A DNA stretch of 35,223 nt. Origin: Patescibacteria group bacterium (lineage in GTDB: Bacteria; Patescibacteriota; Minisyncoccia; Phycocordibacterales; SBAW01). The stretch is from contig JAIEMM010000011.1 of assembly GCA_019752125.1 (NCBI GenBank), positions 1 through 35,223 of the forward strand, in the 5' to 3' direction. This document shows positions 17,583 through 25,474 of this stretch, piece by piece. Within the stretch, counting starts at the first letter, position 1, and each line of letters opens with the position of its first letter. A model generated the notes under the pieces. That model saw only the letters and a list, made by a program, of their open reading frames with translations. It did not search any database and was not told the origin of the DNA. The position numbers were made by a program, and so were the translations under genes.

Positions 17583-18323
17583 ATGCCCATTGCAGACATC
17601 CTTGGTTTAAAGCCTGGCCCCACATTACTTGTTACTGCAGGGCTCGACGGAGATGAGTATCCTCCTATTGCCGCCGCGTTTGAAGCGGCGCAGCGCTACA
17701 AAGATGGAGACTTTGCGGGCCGCCTTATTATCTTACCTATCGTCAACATCGCCGGGTTTGATGCGGGCACGTCAAAAAATCCTATAGATGGGAAATATCC
17801 TAAGTACTGCATACCCGGCCGCCTCTTTGGAACATCGTCGGACCGTCTTATGCGCAGTGTTGTTAAAACGTATGCACAACACTCAGCCCTATGGCTAGAC
17901 CTCCACAGCGCGGCACAAGGTGAAACAGTAATCCCGTGTCTATGGAACAATATCAGCGGTGTTGCCAGTGTAGATGCTCTCGGTGAAGCGTTTACGCGAG
18001 TATCAGGCGTGATAGCTGCAGTGCGCGAACAAGGCGGGCGGGCAACTTGCACTCTCGCGAAACACGGCTGCACATACGTGATTGCAGAATCAGAAGAGGA
18101 AGAGCAACATGCTGCATATATAGAACATGCGTTGCAGGTGCTCGGGATGATACCCGACAACTCTCCAACACAACCTCCTCGTATTTTTACAAAAACACGC
18201 GACATGAAAACATTTGAAGAAACTCCAAACGAAGGAGAACTTGTATTGTGGCAAAAAACCACCAACCTTCCCGGACACAAAGGCAGGTTTGGCGAAATAG
18301 CATACGAAGAGATTACGGAGTAA
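17583..18323 (+). CDS. Succinylglutamate desuccinylase/aspartoacylase-like (M14 family) protein
   Basis: LLVTAGLDGDEYPPIAAAFEA...LIILPIVNIAGFDAGTSKNPIDGKYPKY...ALWLDLHSAAQGETVIP. Confidence 0.8.
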   Translation: MPIADILGLKPGPTLLVTAGLDGDEYPPIAAAFEAAQRYKDGDFAGRLIILPIVNIAGFDAGTSKNPIDGKYPKYCIPGRLFGTSSDRLMRSVVKTYAQHSALWLDLHSAAQGETVIPCLWNNISGVASVDALGEAFTRVSGVIAAVREQGGRATCTLAKHGCTYVIAESEEEEQHAAYIEHALQVLGMIPDNSPTQPPRIFTKTRDMKTFEETPNEGELVLWQKTTNLPGHKGRFGEIAYEEITE

Positions 18324-18340
18324 AATAGCTCCGTAGCACT

Positions 18341-18426
18341 GCCGGGGTGATGAAATGGTAGACATAGGGGACTTAAAATCCCCGGACGTAAAAGTCGTGT
18401 GGGTTCGAGTCCCACCCCCGGCACCA
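18341..18426 (+). tRNA. tRNA-Leu (TAA), 3' CCA encoded
   Basis: GCCGGGG...CTTAAAA loop...GGTTCGAGTCC...CCCCGGC-A-CCA. Confidence 0.93.
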
Positions 18427-18432
18427 GAACAT

Positions 18433-19290
18433 ATGTACGGCGAGATATTACAAGAAGCACCAGAAGGCTATGTCCCCCACTATCAATGGCCTGAGTATGG
18501 GCTTGATACAGATGTCCCTCCCTTTTTAGGACCACGGCTCGTCGGCAAAGACCCCGTTGGGATGTACCGCCGCTTTTGGCCCATTGTTGTTGAAGAATAT
18601 ATTTCTGACAAAGAACCCGTGCTTGCAGACTCGGACCCTCAAGGCATTTCTCTCAACCGCATCATTATTTGGCAGCGTGTATTCCACAAAGATCAGCCAA
18701 AAGGATGGCGCACACTAAAACAAAAGCCTCCACAACTTGAAGGGTTTGCAGAACTTACATCTGACTATTGGAAGCAGTGGTCAGAGTCGGCACGCAGATA
18801 TCGTCGCAAATGGCACGATGAATTCTTGGGGAAAGAATATGCGATAGAAAAAATTAGCGCCGAAGAGTTTTTAAAACAGTATGAAAAGAGCACCATTAAG
18901 TCGTATATAAAAAAATTATATATGGACATTATGCAGCGCAAACAAAAAAACAGCGCGCATATAGATTTTATTGCAGCACGCCACCTCCCCACAGGCGACA
19001 TTGCTGCGGCCATGGCTGTGGTTGATTCCCCAACACATAACGCGTCGCACTACCTGTGCGGTTTTATAAAACCAGAATACGAAAAGGTTCCTGCGATGGT
19101 GGGAGTTATGGACGAATGGCACGCGCGCGGCATGCAGCGCGGTATGAAGTTTCTGCACTTCGGACGTTTTTGGCAAAAAGGCGACCCGGATGACTGGAAA
19201 GGATTTTCTGGGTTCAAATCAAAATTTGGATTGAAGTATGTAGCCTACCCACCTGCCTTGTGGAGATTCAAGGGAGGAAGACTTTTTTAG
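18433..19290 (+). CDS. FemAB/GNAT-like hypothetical protein
   Basis: Long ORF (ATG 18433) with FGRFWQKGDPDDWKGFSGFKSKFGLKYVAYPPALWRFK, resembling FemAB/acetyltransferase C-termini. Confidence 0.55.
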   Translation: MYGEILQEAPEGYVPHYQWPEYGLDTDVPPFLGPRLVGKDPVGMYRRFWPIVVEEYISDKEPVLADSDPQGISLNRIIIWQRVFHKDQPKGWRTLKQKPPQLEGFAELTSDYWKQWSESARRYRRKWHDEFLGKEYAIEKISAEEFLKQYEKSTIKSYIKKLYMDIMQRKQKNSAHIDFIAARHLPTGDIAAAMAVVDSPTHNASHYLCGFIKPEYEKVPAMVGVMDEWHARGMQRGMKFLHFGRFWQKGDPDDWKGFSGFKSKFGLKYVAYPPALWRFKGGRLF

Positions 19291-19620
19291 TGCGCCTTGT
19301 CGGACAAAATTGGAATCAATTAGTTTACGAGCTAGGCGGGTGGTATCAGCTCGGCCGAGACTTACAAGATGTGTTGGCTTCTAAAGCCGAGGCAATAATA
19401 GAGGAGGTTTAAGGACTGCCTTATGGGATTAGAACATACACACTGGAGGCAGAGCCGACAGTGTGCTTCTTGGAGGGGGTCTGGGGGAACCTTCTTTTAG
19501 AGAGAGTAGTTCGAGTCCAAAATTAGCGATATGTTACTATTAAGTTGGCCGGTTGTTCCGTAGGGAACTAGGCTACCTCTCGACGATGTAGATATCCGCA
19601 AGGAGACTGGCTTCAAAAGC

Positions 19621-19645
19621 CCCCCTCATTTCGAGGGGGTTTTTT
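19621..19645 (+). terminator. Strong rho-independent terminator
   Basis: CCCCCTC-atttc-GAGGGGG-TTTTTT; terminates a + strand transcript with no assigned gene. Confidence 0.85.
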
Positions 19646-19648
19646 GTT

Positions 19649-20551
19649 TTATACCGTGCAGCCTTTTTGAAAATCCCAATTGATTTTCGCTATATCGGGA
19701 ATACAAACCAAACCATACCCTCGTACTTTGCTCCTAAAGATGCCCCCTACGTAAAAATTGCATCGGATGCGTTTGAAATAGTCATATGTGCGGAGCACCA
19801 CATCCCCTGCAGGGTTTTTATTTGAGCCGTTCCACTCTCCTCCATGCTCAATAAACTGTCGGGCTATTGTATAAGCACAGACATCTGCAACTTGTAAGAA
19901 ATTTTCAGACGAAGATTTTTTAAAGGTCACGTCGTCTATGTTTCCATAAGAAGGCACATAGATATTTGCCATGCCTTCATTTTTTAGGTACACGCCCTGC
20001 AGTTTATTGTGCGCTCCTCTGGTGATGGAGAGTGATGATTCCATCTGATCGAATACGACTGAACAACCTCCGCCGCAATAAGAGTGGATACGCTCAAGTA
20101 AAACCTGAGCGGCTTTCAAGAGAGGTGTCCCTTCTGGTTTATTGCGAGACGGGCCATAGTAACGCTTATCAAATACGGTCGCAAAAAGTTTCATGCGATC
20201 TGCGTTTTTAGCGATGAGGTCAAAATACTCTTCGCCAAATTGGTTAAGCTGCTCTGGAGTAATGCCATATGGATCGAGGTAGTACTTTTTTCGCTTATCT
20301 GGGATTCTCATCCAGACCGATTTAACCTCCACGTCATAGGTGCCAAAATACTTCTTCTTTAGTGCATTGAACTGATCATTCAAATCCTTAAGATCCGCAT
20401 TGTCGATACTCACACCACAAAGAACAAAATAGTTCCCACGCCAAAACGCCTCATTGCCTTTGTATGGAGGAGGATTATCAACGAATTCTTTAGCGTGAGG
20501 CGTGACATACTCCTTACTGCCGCTGTCGTCTATAAAAACTGTTCTGGCCAT
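19649..20551 (-). CDS. DUF3800-like protein
   Basis: MARTVFIDDSGSKEY N-terminus, VVFDQMES, and C-terminal ENFLQVADVCAYTIARQFIEH, typical of DUF3800. Confidence 0.82.
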   Translation of the reverse strand: MARTVFIDDSGSKEYVTPHAKEFVDNPPPYKGNEAFWRGNYFVLCGVSIDNADLKDLNDQFNALKKKYFGTYDVEVKSVWMRIPDKRKKYYLDPYGITPEQLNQFGEEYFDLIAKNADRMKLFATVFDKRYYGPSRNKPEGTPLLKAAQVLLERIHSYCGGGCSVVFDQMESSLSITRGAHNKLQGVYLKNEGMANIYVPSYGNIDDVTFKKSSSENFLQVADVCAYTIARQFIEHGGEWNGSNKNPAGDVVLRTYDYFKRIRCNFYVGGIFRSKVRGYGLVCIPDIAKINWDFQKGCTV

Positions 20552-20624
20552 TGAAACAGACTACACCCTTGGGGTTACGAGAACAATAATTTCTGCACGC
20601 AGATCATGGTGTGGATATAAAACC

Positions 20625-20652
20625 TTGTCGCTCAACCATGAGGGTATATACT
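20625..20652 (+). promoter_or_regulatory. Candidate sigma70-type promoter for a ncRNA
   Basis: TTGTCG (20625-20630), 16-nt spacer, TATACT (20647-20652); predicted TSS ~20658-20660. Confidence 0.5.
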
Positions 20653-20657
20653 TTGTA

Positions 20658-20838
20658 CTGTGGAACATGACGATGATGATTTGCTTTGTATCAAAAACTT
20701 GCCTAAATTAGTGTTCTAGCCACAAAGGACCCTTATACCATGTGCGGAGCATCGAGCTAAAACCTCATGTTCCACAGACTGGGGCAATGTTTGAAAAAGC
20801 ATTTCTTCGGTGCTCCGCATTAGGTGTAAGGGTTTTTT
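20658..20838 (+). ncRNA. Candidate ~180-nt structured ncRNA with interleaved helices and terminal U-run
   Basis: CTGTGGAACATGA (20658-20670) / TCATGTTCCACAG (20765-20777) perfect 13 bp; 20730-20756 pairs with 20806-20832 (21 WC + 4 G.U of 27), followed by TTTTTT. Confidence 0.55.
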
Positions 20839-20956
20839 CTTTGTCACGCTACTCCTGCACAGGGCAACTCGTGTGCAGGTCAGGCAGGATAATAGCCGCA
20901 ACCGCATCAACCGATGCGGTTGGCAGAAGCTGCAAGAAACGCAGAGAAGATGCCAT

Positions 20957-21088
20957 ATGGCACGACAATCTCGTCTCGCTGGCCGTGACAAGTACGGTCA
21001 GTTTGAGGAACTCGACAAGGCACGGGAAAAGAAGAGCTCGACTGTTGAGCACCTTCCACTTCCGGGCTACGGCGACGTAGATAGGTAG
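20957..21088 (+). CDS. Small ORF (43 aa)
   Basis: MARQSRLAGRDKYGQFEELDKAREKKSSTVEHLPLPGYGDVDR; ATG 20957; no homolog recognised. Confidence 0.35.
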   Translation: MARQSRLAGRDKYGQFEELDKAREKKSSTVEHLPLPGYGDVDR

Positions 21089-21203
21089 AAACATGGGGAG
21101 TTAGGTCATCCCACCCAGTTGCAAACTGTTTGGCAATTGGCAGGGGTGACTTAACAGTAAGGGCGTCCCCAGCCCTAGTCGGCAGACGAAAAATGTAGCC
21201 GCA

Positions 21204-21353
21204 ATGAACACAAAATTTGCGCATTGCCATCTCGATCCAGAGACTGGTTTGGTCTGGTGCCAGCACCATAACGGTAGTTGGGCGCCACCATTTCAGGCCT
21301 ATGACATTGAAGATGGTGAGGACGGTGAACGCCAAACGGCCACCACCTCATAG
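21204..21353 (+). CDS. Small Cys/His-containing ORF (49 aa)
   Basis: MNTKFAHCHLDPETGLVWCQHHNGSWAPPFQAYDIEDGEDGERQTATTS; not in the supplied track; terminator follows at 21388. Confidence 0.3.
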   Translation: MNTKFAHCHLDPETGLVWCQHHNGSWAPPFQAYDIEDGEDGERQTATTS

Positions 21354-21387
21354 AAGCAGCAGCCGTTTGGAATCTTAAGAAATGGGT

Positions 21388-21412
21388 CGAGGGAAACTCC
21401 CTCGGCTCTTTT
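21388..21412 (+). terminator. Rho-independent terminator
   Basis: CGAGGGA-aac-TCCCTCG followed by GCTCTTTTC. Confidence 0.75.
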
Positions 21413-21525: not shown

Positions 21526-21548
21526 TTTACTGCACTAGGTGCAGTAAA
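21526..21548. repeat. 23-nt palindrome, left copy of an inverted pair
   Basis: TTTACTGCAC-TAG-GTGCAGTAAA, perfect 10-bp arms; its first 21 nt are the exact reverse complement of 23943-23963. Confidence 0.9.
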
Positions 21549-21895: not shown

Positions 21896-22879
21896 TTATT
21901 CTTCGTCTAAATAGTCAAAAGTGTGGGCGCCTGGGCCCTCGTGCTGTTTTGCTTCTCTAGTTTGGTGTACGTATTCGTCAGTTGCACGATATTCTTCACC
22001 AAACGGTAGTGCTTCTGAAGATAAAGGATTTGTAGCGAGAGGATTATGTACAACTATAAAATTTTCTCCCATCTCGTTAGAAAGGCGGGGGCTATTTATT
22101 ACATTATCAATGCAATAAATCACGGCACTTATTCCAGCATGAGCTGGATTCGCAAAGAAAGTCATCGATACTTCATTCCCGCTTTTCTTTCTGATATTCG
22201 GCCTTAACTGCCAAAATGCTTCGGGCCCTGCAGGCGGAGTTACTTCGGTACCTGGTACAGGAAAACGAATCGCCTGATGACCAATACCAAACAAGACTTT
22301 TAGTATGAGAGATGGCGGCATCTCAATATGTTCGAGTTCAGAGCGATTTATTGCTATAACATACGGATCTCCCGCAGCGATAAAGCCATTTGTGAGATCG
22401 GATTGATACTTCCTGTATTTTGCATCTAAAGCCGCAGCTACTCGTAACGACATATTCTCTTCGGGTACATTAACAGCGACTCGATAATTCATCTCAGGAA
22501 CTCTATCTGGCCCATCTCCCTTACGGGCTGAAATAGCTTCTATCCATGTTATGCGATTACCATTCTGATCTCTAACGTCAAAATCAGGCCCTGCATCGTT
22601 GTGTGCCCCAAGCATGAATCCTCTATTGATCAGAGTGACTCCTAAGTAAAGCTCCCAAGAACGTGCATTAAAGTTTCTCTTAAAGCTACCTAGAAAGTCA
22701 GTATCAGCGTATGGTTGATACTGTAGCCAAAGGCTTTCCATCCATTGTCTTACCTTTCTGCGCAGACCATACGCACCTTGGCAGATATACCCCGCATCAT
22801 AGTCCGGATGCTGCTTCAGCAAAGCAGCCAATTCTTGATCAGTTTTTATTTCCGGGAAATTGTCTGAAAACAAAGACAT
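21896..22879 (-). CDS. PD-(D/E)xK-like hypothetical protein
   Basis: SWELYLGVTLINRGFMLGAHNDAGPDFDVRDQNGNRITWIEAISARKGDG: alpha-helical Glu, GPDFD, then EA, as in degenerate PD-(D/E)xK nuclease-like domains. Confidence 0.6.
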   Translation of the reverse strand: MSLFSDNFPEIKTDQELAALLKQHPDYDAGYICQGAYGLRRKVRQWMESLWLQYQPYADTDFLGSFKRNFNARSWELYLGVTLINRGFMLGAHNDAGPDFDVRDQNGNRITWIEAISARKGDGPDRVPEMNYRVAVNVPEENMSLRVAAALDAKYRKYQSDLTNGFIAAGDPYVIAINRSELEHIEMPPSLILKVLFGIGHQAIRFPVPGTEVTPPAGPEAFWQLRPNIRKKSGNEVSMTFFANPAHAGISAVIYCIDNVINSPRLSNEMGENFIVVHNPLATNPLSSEALPFGEEYRATDEYVHQTREAKQHEGPGAHTFDYLDEE

Positions 22880-22883
22880 AAAG

Positions 22884-23906
22884 TTATGACAGGTCTACGG
22901 GATGATCCATTTTGTATCCTAGATACGGCTTTTGTCCTGGCGTAAAGCGATAGGCCACCTCTGCTTCTTCTGGGACCGAGTGATTTTCCACAAGAATAAA
23001 CTCATAAGTGAAAATATTGTAGATCTGTATCACGCCTACAACATGTCCGCCTTGGTTCTCGATCCGAACGTTATAGCTATCGCTTGCAAACCTTAGATTA
23101 TCTTTTTCCTCTCCTGTCCAAAAAGGTTTTTGTGTGATTCTTCCCAACAGGGTATCGCCGTCGTATCTAATAAAATTTCTTGCTTTGTCCCATTCAGGCT
23201 TAACTGTCTCTGCCTCGCCAATGTAATAGGTTGCAAAGTTGAATAAAACTTTTGCAATTGCACGTCTATGACGTTTGTCGATCGTGCCTTCAATCGTGCC
23301 CCGCACAATAACTTTTCCATCCGGATCTACGTTTTTAAGAAAAGGGATCTCATCCATCATTTCCTTTTCCCTGTAAGGAATGTTGTATTTCTTTAACTCA
23401 GCGACCACCTCGTCATACCTCTCTTTAGAAGGGCCATATATTCGCATCTGTCGACTCCCTGGAGTTGTGCCGCCATGCTCATCTTCGATGATTTTTACGT
23501 CTTTTATTTGATCCAGTCTGTATCTCTCCCATTTATCTTTTTTTATATTCCAGATCCAAAATTGAGGAAGAAGTAGGCCACCCTTACCAGTTTTTGGATC
23601 TGGGGGGCCAAGTAAAGCCCCACCATACTCTCCATTTTCCTCGGTCTCTTCAAGAGAGAAAATTAGACTCTTGGGCGCACCCTTTGCATCCGAAGTAATA
23701 CCTTTTTTGGATCGAGTGACCCCTTCAATAGTGTCTCGCGCAAGCAACAGATCAAGTTCCTTACCGAAATAAGTGTTGCATTCATCGCAAACATTCCTAA
23801 GAGTCGGAGTGTCAGAGCTGAACTTACCAAAGCTTTGAGGAATGACATGCTCTACCCCTTTAAAGTTTTCAACTCCTTCTTTTTTGCAATATATGCATGC
23901 ATTCAC
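22884..23906 (-). CDS. HNH endonuclease domain protein
   Basis: CIYCKKEGVENFKGVEHVIPQSFGKF...LRNVCDECNTYFGKELDLLLARD: CxxC...EHVIP...N.CxxCN. Confidence 0.88.
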   Translation of the reverse strand: MNACIYCKKEGVENFKGVEHVIPQSFGKFSSDTPTLRNVCDECNTYFGKELDLLLARDTIEGVTRSKKGITSDAKGAPKSLIFSLEETEENGEYGGALLGPPDPKTGKGGLLLPQFWIWNIKKDKWERYRLDQIKDVKIIEDEHGGTTPGSRQMRIYGPSKERYDEVVAELKKYNIPYREKEMMDEIPFLKNVDPDGKVIVRGTIEGTIDKRHRRAIAKVLFNFATYYIGEAETVKPEWDKARNFIRYDGDTLLGRITQKPFWTGEEKDNLRFASDSYNVRIENQGGHVVGVIQIYNIFTYEFILVENHSVPEEAEVAYRFTPGQKPYLGYKMDHPVDLS

Positions 23907-23942: not shown

Positions 23943-23963
23943 TACTGCACCTAGTGCAGTAAA
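23943..23963. repeat. Palindrome, right copy of an inverted pair
   Basis: TACTGCACCTAGTGCAGTAAA, exact reverse complement of 21526-21546; 37 nt upstream of the HNH gene start. Confidence 0.9.
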
Positions 23964-24151: not shown

Positions 24152-24799
24152 TTGCTTGGGAAACCCGCAGAGGCCACAGGAGTTTTATCGCAGATCCCTA
24201 ATGATTTCGACATGTACGGAGCGAAGATGGAAATATGGTGGCTAACACGTAAGTTAAAAGGTCGGACTTGGCTCTCATCCTCAGTGTCATGGGGCGAAGA
24301 TGGTGACCTGAAGGTTCAGTACGAACTCGACATGCGGCCTGATAGTGAGTTCAGGCCTGAATTTAAGCTTTCGTATAGCGTAGACGATCGGGACGGAGTG
24401 TCGCAGGACATACACTACTCAGTGTATTTGGATGAAACCCCGGCCAACTACGGAGGGTTCAGGTATTGGTTTTTCTGCCCACTCTCGAAAGACGGGAAAT
24501 ATCGATGTAATCGACGTGTTGCGGTTCTGTATTTCAGTGGAAGATATTTTGGCTGTCGCCAGTGCATTGGCTACGAATACGACTCGAAAAGCATCAATTA
24601 CAGCTCCACCTCCCATCGCTATATTTCAATACTGAAGATGCAGGATATGTCAGAAAATCTTAAACGCTGTACATGGCGCGGCAAGGACACACGACAGATG
24701 AAGCAGTTCAGGAAACTTTGTGAACAGGCAGGCTGTCCGAAGTATGCCGACGCGCTCATTCGTTTACGTTCACGCCGGAAAACTCTAAAGGTGACCTAG
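24152..24799 (+). CDS. Zinc-ribbon-like hypothetical protein
   Basis: GGFRYWFFCPLSKDGKYRCNRRVAVLYFSGRYFGCRQCIGYEYDSKS, a pattern common in mobile elements; start codon uncertain (TTG 24152 or ATG 24212). Confidence 0.6.
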   Translation: MLGKPAEATGVLSQIPNDFDMYGAKMEIWWLTRKLKGRTWLSSSVSWGEDGDLKVQYELDMRPDSEFRPEFKLSYSVDDRDGVSQDIHYSVYLDETPANYGGFRYWFFCPLSKDGKYRCNRRVAVLYFSGRYFGCRQCIGYEYDSKSINYSSTSHRYISILKMQDMSENLKRCTWRGKDTRQMKQFRKLCEQAGCPKYADALIRLRSRRKTLKVT

Positions 24800-25287
24800 T
24801 TCTGTATACTGCTTAGAATGCCGTCGTCGAAGTAGATGTAGTTAGAGCCATATACCCACTGCTCGTTTGTGCCGTCCGCCGTTATAGTGCGGTTAACGTG
24901 ATCCGGCTCACCCCATGCCGCACGTGCCTGCTCTGGGCTCATGCCTATAGCGACTTTCTTTTCGAGTATTAAATCGCAGGCCTTTCGTTTCCAGTCAGTG
25001 TGTTTGGCACAGAGCTTGCCTGCTGGAGTTTCCTGCCATGCTGCGAGTTCGGCCGCTTGTTTTGCAGCGTCTTCGGCGTTAACAGTTGAGTTTGATGGTT
25101 TAGACCCACCAAGGCCGATACTGAAAATCACAAATAGAATTAGGGCTCCTAGAAACCCGGCCACGAACTTGCGCCACACAGTCCATTTATAAATTTTCCC
25201 CTGACAATGAGGACAGCGTGTAGCTGCCTTGTCGACCTCCGCTTTGCAGTGAGGGCAAATGCCTTTCGCTGCGGTTGTGGTGACCAT
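24796..25287 (-). CDS. Zinc-ribbon membrane protein with SmpA/OmlA-like C-terminus
   Basis: CPHCKAEVDKAATRCPHCQGKIY, TM segment, IGMSPEQARAAWGEPDHVNRTITADGTNEQWVYGSNYIYFDDGIL. Confidence 0.7.
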   Translation of the reverse strand: MVTTTAAKGICPHCKAEVDKAATRCPHCQGKIYKWTVWRKFVAGFLGALILFVIFSIGLGGSKPSNSTVNAEDAAKQAAELAAWQETPAGKLCAKHTDWKRKACDLILEKKVAIGMSPEQARAAWGEPDHVNRTITADGTNEQWVYGSNYIYFDDGILSSIQN

Positions 25288-25384
25288 AGTAATAAAAATT
25301 ACCGGATAAATCCGGCGTTTGGACTCAGAAACACTGAGCCCCACGCCAGCTAGGCTTTGCAGCCCCACACCCGTTTCCAGATAT

Positions 25385-25474
25385 GGCCCATCGCTGAGTC
25401 GCTGAACGTGGGGTTCAGTGTCAGCGATGGGTCTTGACGACCTTGCCGTACAGCGATGCTGTGCGGGTTAGGTC
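25385..25474. repeat. Two tandem long hairpins in a divergent intergenic region
   Basis: CCCATCGCTGA (25387-25397)/TCAGCGATGGG (25421-25431) enclosing CTGAAC/GTTCAG; then GACCT..CCGTACAGC-GAT-GCTGTGCGG..AGGTC (25439-25474). Confidence 0.7.

Follow-up and report, generated by a model that had tools for sequence, protein, structure and literature searches.

A candidate leader RNA ahead of a small-protein gene and a covarying RNA at the tail of a DUF3800 gene in a Patescibacteria genome

Introduction

In the window, by which we mean the whole 35,223-nt stretch of Patescibacteria DNA analyzed here, a DUF3800 gene lies head-to-head with a stretch for which an original prediction, made from the letters of the DNA, had proposed a discrete ncRNA of about 180 nt with an interleaved, pseudoknot-type fold and, as speculation, a link to the DUF3800 protein. 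The locus raises the question of which gene, if any, the predicted RNA (20658-20838, plus strand) belongs to, and whether the DUF3800 gene has an RNA partner of its own. The DUF3800 gene (19649-20551, minus strand) encodes a protein of 300 aa matching PF12686 (E 1.2e-16). Proteins of this kind, to which a published AlphaFold model assigns an RNase H-like fold, are found in some CRISPR loci (PMC10910872, PMC12669027), including some VI-F and V-A2 loci (PMC12669027), and in our sample of the phylum DUF3800 was present in 73 of 384 genomes, about one in five.

Folding of the stretch from 20658 to 20838

Re-inspection of the sequence placed every element listed in the original prediction where it had been described. 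The promoter-like sequence TTGTCG (20625-20630), a 16-nt spacer and TATACT (20647-20652) precede a predicted start at about 20658 on the plus strand; the hexamers are present as described, although their 9/12 match to the consensus is no better than chance, with 1.6 sites as good expected in the region. At the predicted start lies element C (CUGUGGAACAUGA, 20658-20670), which is perfectly complementary over 13 nt to element C' (20765-20777) in the loop of helix D. When the 196-nt stretch was dinucleotide-shuffled 20,000 times, a perfect 13-nt complement appeared in 4 of the shuffles, and the 35-kb window holds just one other perfect complement of at least 13 nt within a span of up to 250. Helix D joins 20730-20756 to 20806-20832 through 21 Watson-Crick and four G.U pairs with two mismatches and is followed by UUUUUU, all as first described; in our folding its pairing reaches further outward, so that the 5' arm occupies 20728-20756, and both the minimum free energy (MFE) and the centroid structures place a small hairpin (AAUGUUU-GAAA-AAGCAUU, 20786-20803) within its loop. 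The 3' arm of D together with the six U residues (20806-20838) forms, as judged by sequence, a terminator-like end. The D loop measures 49 nt, which is unusual for an intrinsic terminator, and since the simple terminator scan accepts loops of 3 to 8 nt only, this end is absent from its list.

The domain surrounding helix D (20724-20845) has a folding energy of -57.2 kcal/mol, compared with -28.8 +/- 3.4 for its shuffles (z about -8.5), and its minus strand gives a z of -4.3; for the entire stretch from 20650 to 20845, z is -5.4 on the plus strand versus -2.1 on the minus strand. Only on the plus strand are the four wobbles G.U pairs, which explains its better fold, and the difference in z favors a plus-strand RNA, in line with what had been proposed. 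From these fold statistics, a structured plus-strand RNA with a terminator-like end at 20658-20838 is a well-supported prediction. Two further strong hairpins are predicted at 20854-20927, between the D element and the next gene (20845-20990, z -3.2). Strong structure on the plus strand, overlooked in the original prediction, continues to about 21500.

The proposed interleaving of C:C' with helix D is allowed by the sequence and by loop lengths of 59, 8 and 28 nt, the first being the linker noted at the outset. With C and C' left free, the best fold has -55.2 kcal/mol, to which the C:C' duplex would add -20.4 kcal/mol before any pseudoknot penalty, a term that we ourselves estimate at 7 to 10 kcal/mol. 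The MFE structure is nested: part of C pairs locally in a 5' hairpin (20652-20668 with 20711-20726, -12.4 kcal/mol), where 20711-20726 competes with C', and the complete nested fold has -68.4 kcal/mol. The two folds are thus equal in modeled energy within error, which makes the pseudoknot possible and not favored. This nested alternative, of about the same energy, had also been overlooked. Given the near-equal energies, C may switch between its local partner and the D loop. In the one candidate homolog in which conservation of the interleaved pairing was checked (locus L060 of genome G154, described below), a pairing of the 5' part with the loop was not better than in shuffles, 180 of 300 of which equaled it. 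Of the pseudoknot as first proposed, the feasibility stands, while the energies tie and the homolog is without C:C'.

A small downstream gene and its proposed leader in other genomes

A conserved gene of 43 aa (MARQSRLAGRDKYGQFEELDKAREKKSSTVEHLPLPGYGDVDR, 20957-21088) begins 118 nt downstream of the U run, on the same strand as the predicted RNA. It too had been overlooked. Its protein has no match in Pfam or NCBIfam. Genome G154, from a different family, encodes a homolog with 88% identity over 41 residues, and weak homologs (E about 1e-4), with leaders of different lengths, occur in G162 and G145. The gene was not found in the 40 other genomes of the source genome's own family, and we therefore regard it as accessory DNA.

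When a single-sequence model of the 20658-20838 RNA (R1) was run with filters off on the seven relevant loci (28 kb), its best match was the leader of the G154 homolog, at 19.8 bits and an E value of 0.022 that is to be read as rough. The TATACT box recurs in G154 at the same upstream distance; the -10 box and the U run are 186 nt apart in the window versus 191 nt in G154, and the ATG follows the -10 box at about 313 nt versus 316 nt. The G154 sequence has diverged, and a global alignment of the two leaders scored 126, against 99.7 +/- 8.9 for shuffles, i.e., about 3 standard deviations higher, with 1 of 200 shuffles reaching that score. The G154 element itself folds with a z of -4.2. In G162, a 10/12 promoter is followed by a leader that contains a hairpin and a U run and precedes the small-gene homolog. 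A conserved same-strand downstream gene preceded by a leader is thus found in G154 and more weakly beyond that genome, G154 being the one relative in which the leader is clearly comparable. A promoter scan found no second promoter-like site between 20652 and 20957. The covariance model search of genomes that had been suggested gave little, as the model of 20658-20838 returned only two weak matches (E 0.04 and 0.09) across 297 genomes of the order; both aligned mostly the unpaired 5' part and were judged to be chance. Phage and plasmid DNA held no similarity to 20658-20838.

Beyond the small gene, folding predicts a long hairpin (21101-21160, plus strand), after which come a possible ORF of 49 aa (MNTKFAHCHLDPETG..., 21204-21353, plus strand) with no family match and a terminator-like hairpin reported by the terminator scan (21384-21408, plus strand), a possible end of the plus-strand unit. 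Near one of the small-gene homologs, a minus-strand ORF of 104 aa (1037-1351 of locus L062) contains a related stretch (GRDSKTGQFISVRDAKKRPKTTVVE), which suggests, at the level of sequence, a wider family of small proteins.

An RNA at the tail of the DUF3800 gene

Database scans with the single DUF3800 protein, covering genomes and viral contigs, found nothing, and a two-sequence alignment used as the query found three relatives. The relatives considered here share 55% (L044), 52% (L045) and about 40% (L046 and L008) identity with the protein of the window. The acidic residues D8, E75, D128, D168, E171 and D223 do not vary among five relatives, as would be expected of an active nuclease as far as sequence can tell. 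Our AlphaFold model of the protein, built on four sequences, was too poor to be used (mean pLDDT 48.8), and comparison with solved structures gave marginal matches only.

A second RNA lies at the opposite end of this gene. It occupies 19547-19614 on the plus strand, opposite to and tail-to-tail with the gene, whose stop codon is 34 nt away, and is predicted to fold into a four-way junction with a closing helix P1 (GGCCGG/CUGGCU) and three hairpins (GUUCC-GUAG-GGAAC, CUAC...GUAG and UCC-GCAA-GGA); a terminator composed of a hairpin and a U run is predicted at 19619-19645. Nearly identical copies accompany the genes at L044 and L045, and a model built from those two (R2) matches the window copy at 71 bits. 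When R2 was used to scan 290 genomes of the phylum for the RNA alone, two were positive, the source genome and G451, where the match, found blind, proved to lie immediately tail-to-tail with a DUF3800 gene. With L046 and L008 added, the members number six, each 66 to 68 nt long, and in 6/6 the RNA is on the strand opposite to the DUF3800 gene, tail-to-tail with it, and is followed 3' by a hairpin and U run. The promoter is weak in the window copy; at L045, a TATAAT box within a 10/12 promoter match stands 6 nt before the first base.

All 95 of 95 scored cells of the tail RNA alignment are paired, a percentage inflated by fitting the alignment to the model structure, which does not account for the contrast with slid partners, of which 31 to 48% are paired. 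Eleven of the 17 pairs have changed on both sides, and none of 500 shuffles reached the observed covariation. Rfam 15, searched over 18300-21000 at gathering and relaxed thresholds, gave no match up to E 10 for the tail RNA or for 20658-20838, which agrees with the earlier statement that the latter belongs to no recognized family. DNA similarity to the tail RNA was likewise absent from phages and plasmids. From sequence comparison, the tail RNA is a new and previously uncatalogued class of DUF3800-associated RNA, newness here being judged against Rfam, through which alone the motif list of Weinberg 2017 was compared.

This arrangement resembles that of catalogued DUF3800 RNAs. An Rfam scan of 31 DUF3800 gene loci in the phylum found DUF3800-IX (RF02968) at 11 and DUF3800-V (RF02964) at 5. 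Wherever a copy was assignable to a particular gene, it sat at the tail, on the strand opposite to the gene and typically no more than some tens of bases beyond the stop codon. None occupied the divergent head position; a second DUF3800-IX copy at L027, upstream of the gene, was left out of the assignment. The tail RNA shares with these two families a small, structured form, a position tail-to-tail with the gene, some tens of bases away at most and on the other strand, and, often, a -10-like box just upstream, and differs from them in sequence and in its four-way junction. The RNA at 20658-20838 is unlike them: its position is at the gene's head, and no Rfam family matches it. The original expectation that the DUF3800 gene goes with an RNA was right in general; the cognate RNA seems to be the one at the other end of the gene. 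Most likely, we infer from the consistent association and the covarying structure, the tail RNA and the DUF3800 protein act together as a small ribonucleoprotein. A further covarying class at the same tail-to-tail site, recovered blind in one genome, strengthens the view of a small RNA as a regular part of DUF3800 systems, and the gene with its 100-nt RNA constitutes a named pair that is small enough for bench tests.

A second tail RNA class outside Rfam was noticed at five other DUF3800 genes (L031, L034, L036, L040 and L042), again on the opposite strand and marked by the motif GUGGGGCUCCGUAUGGUUCCUC or GUGGGCUUCCGGAUGGUUGCUC; 96% of its cells are paired, and 6 of 16 pairs have changed on both sides.

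Discussion

The reading that we prefer, with a probability of about one in two, is that 20658-20838 would be a terminator-bearing 5' leader of the small gene at 20957-21088 and attenuate it, and that the tail RNA would belong to a DUF3800 ribonucleoprotein. Transcription would start near 20658, helix D with its U run would attenuate transcription, most transcripts ending at about 20838 as an RNA of ~180 nt, and read-through beyond 20838 would yield the mRNA of the 43-aa protein. C may switch between the local 5' hairpin and the D loop. The DUF3800 gene, the upstream neighbor, points the other way, and helix D is therefore not its terminator. The element has in common with attenuator leaders a promoter-like site, a structured leader, a hairpin with a U run, a downstream gene on the same strand and alternative pairings of its 5' part. 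It departs from them in that the D stem is much longer and its loop reaches 49 nt, in that no ligand, leader peptide or anti-terminator was identified, and in that the protein that follows belongs to an unnamed family of 43 aa. If the leader reading is true, it predicts control of read-through at 20838, and the structured RNA then goes with the small-protein gene instead of the DUF3800 gene.

The main rival, which we consider rather unlikely, is a stand-alone small RNA running from the promoter at 20625 to the terminator at 20838 that would work in trans through base pairing or protein binding, with the small gene served by a promoter of its own. The promoter-like site, the strong fold and the terminator-like end do delimit a unit of ~180 nt, and an attenuated leader would give the same short RNA. 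Several observations make the originally proposed "discrete" ncRNA doubtful, leaving its structured plus-strand RNA and terminator-like end in place: (i) the conserved gene on the same strand starts 118 nt downstream, (ii) no other promoter-like site lies in between, and (iii) in G154, too, a similar element with matching distances stands ahead of the homologous gene. Moreover, a stand-alone RNA has no copy elsewhere in the genome and no separate locus in 41 genomes of the family and 297 of the order. A still less probable explanation, for which we see only a slim chance, denies the stretch any RNA function and takes it for imperfect inverted repeats, a remnant of a mobile element in an accessory island whose hairpin arose by chance. 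It would fit the absence of the small gene from the 40 other family genomes and of the DUF3800 gene from nearly all genomes of the order, as well as the further inverted repeats nearby, such as a pair of 21-nt palindromes; it is at odds with the strand bias of the fold and of its wobbles, with the comparable element ahead of the homologous gene and with the finding of neither a transposase nor a second copy.

Least probable by far is the speculation from which the analysis departed, that 20658-20838 is the partner RNA of the head-to-head DUF3800 gene. The RNA begins 107 nt from the start of that gene, and RNA neighbors of DUF3800 genes are known (PMC10910872, citing Weinberg 2017). Against this, the co-occurrence suggested at the outset fails, since the head regions of the four relatives with enough flank (L044, L045, L046 and L008) hold nothing like 20658-20838; moreover, all DUF3800 RNAs of Rfam assignable to a gene in the phylum are tail RNAs encoded opposite to it, and this DUF3800 gene already owns a covarying tail RNA.

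Two well-known RNAs were also tried and rejected for 20658-20838. Its length near 180 nt recalls 6S RNA and its possible pseudoknot recalls tmRNA; no Rfam match to 6S RNA was obtained here or anywhere in the genome, and the tmRNA of this genome lies elsewhere (G000:C2), with no match at this position.

Taken jointly, a bolder proposal can be made only tentatively and is, in our estimate, rather less probable than the leader reading: 19547-19614 would found a new class of DUF3800 ribonucleoprotein RNAs that direct or restrain an RNase H-like nuclease, and 20658-20838 would be a new pseudoknotted regulatory leader of an unnamed family of tiny proteins in accessory islands of these bacteria.

The DNA beyond these elements offers further observations. 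Two adjacent minus-strand genes (21896-22879 and 22884-23906) resemble PD-T7-5/PD-T7-1 (E 6e-22 and 3e-12) and the HNH_5 endonuclease and are, by sequence, likely a phage-defense pair. They are flanked by identical 21-nt copies of the palindrome TACTGCACCTAGTGCAGTAAA at 21526-21546 and 23943-23963, one of them inverted. Further along, a LOOT RNA (RF03000) at 25352-25474 on the minus strand scores 73.8 bits and overlaps the start of an ORF at 24796-25368.
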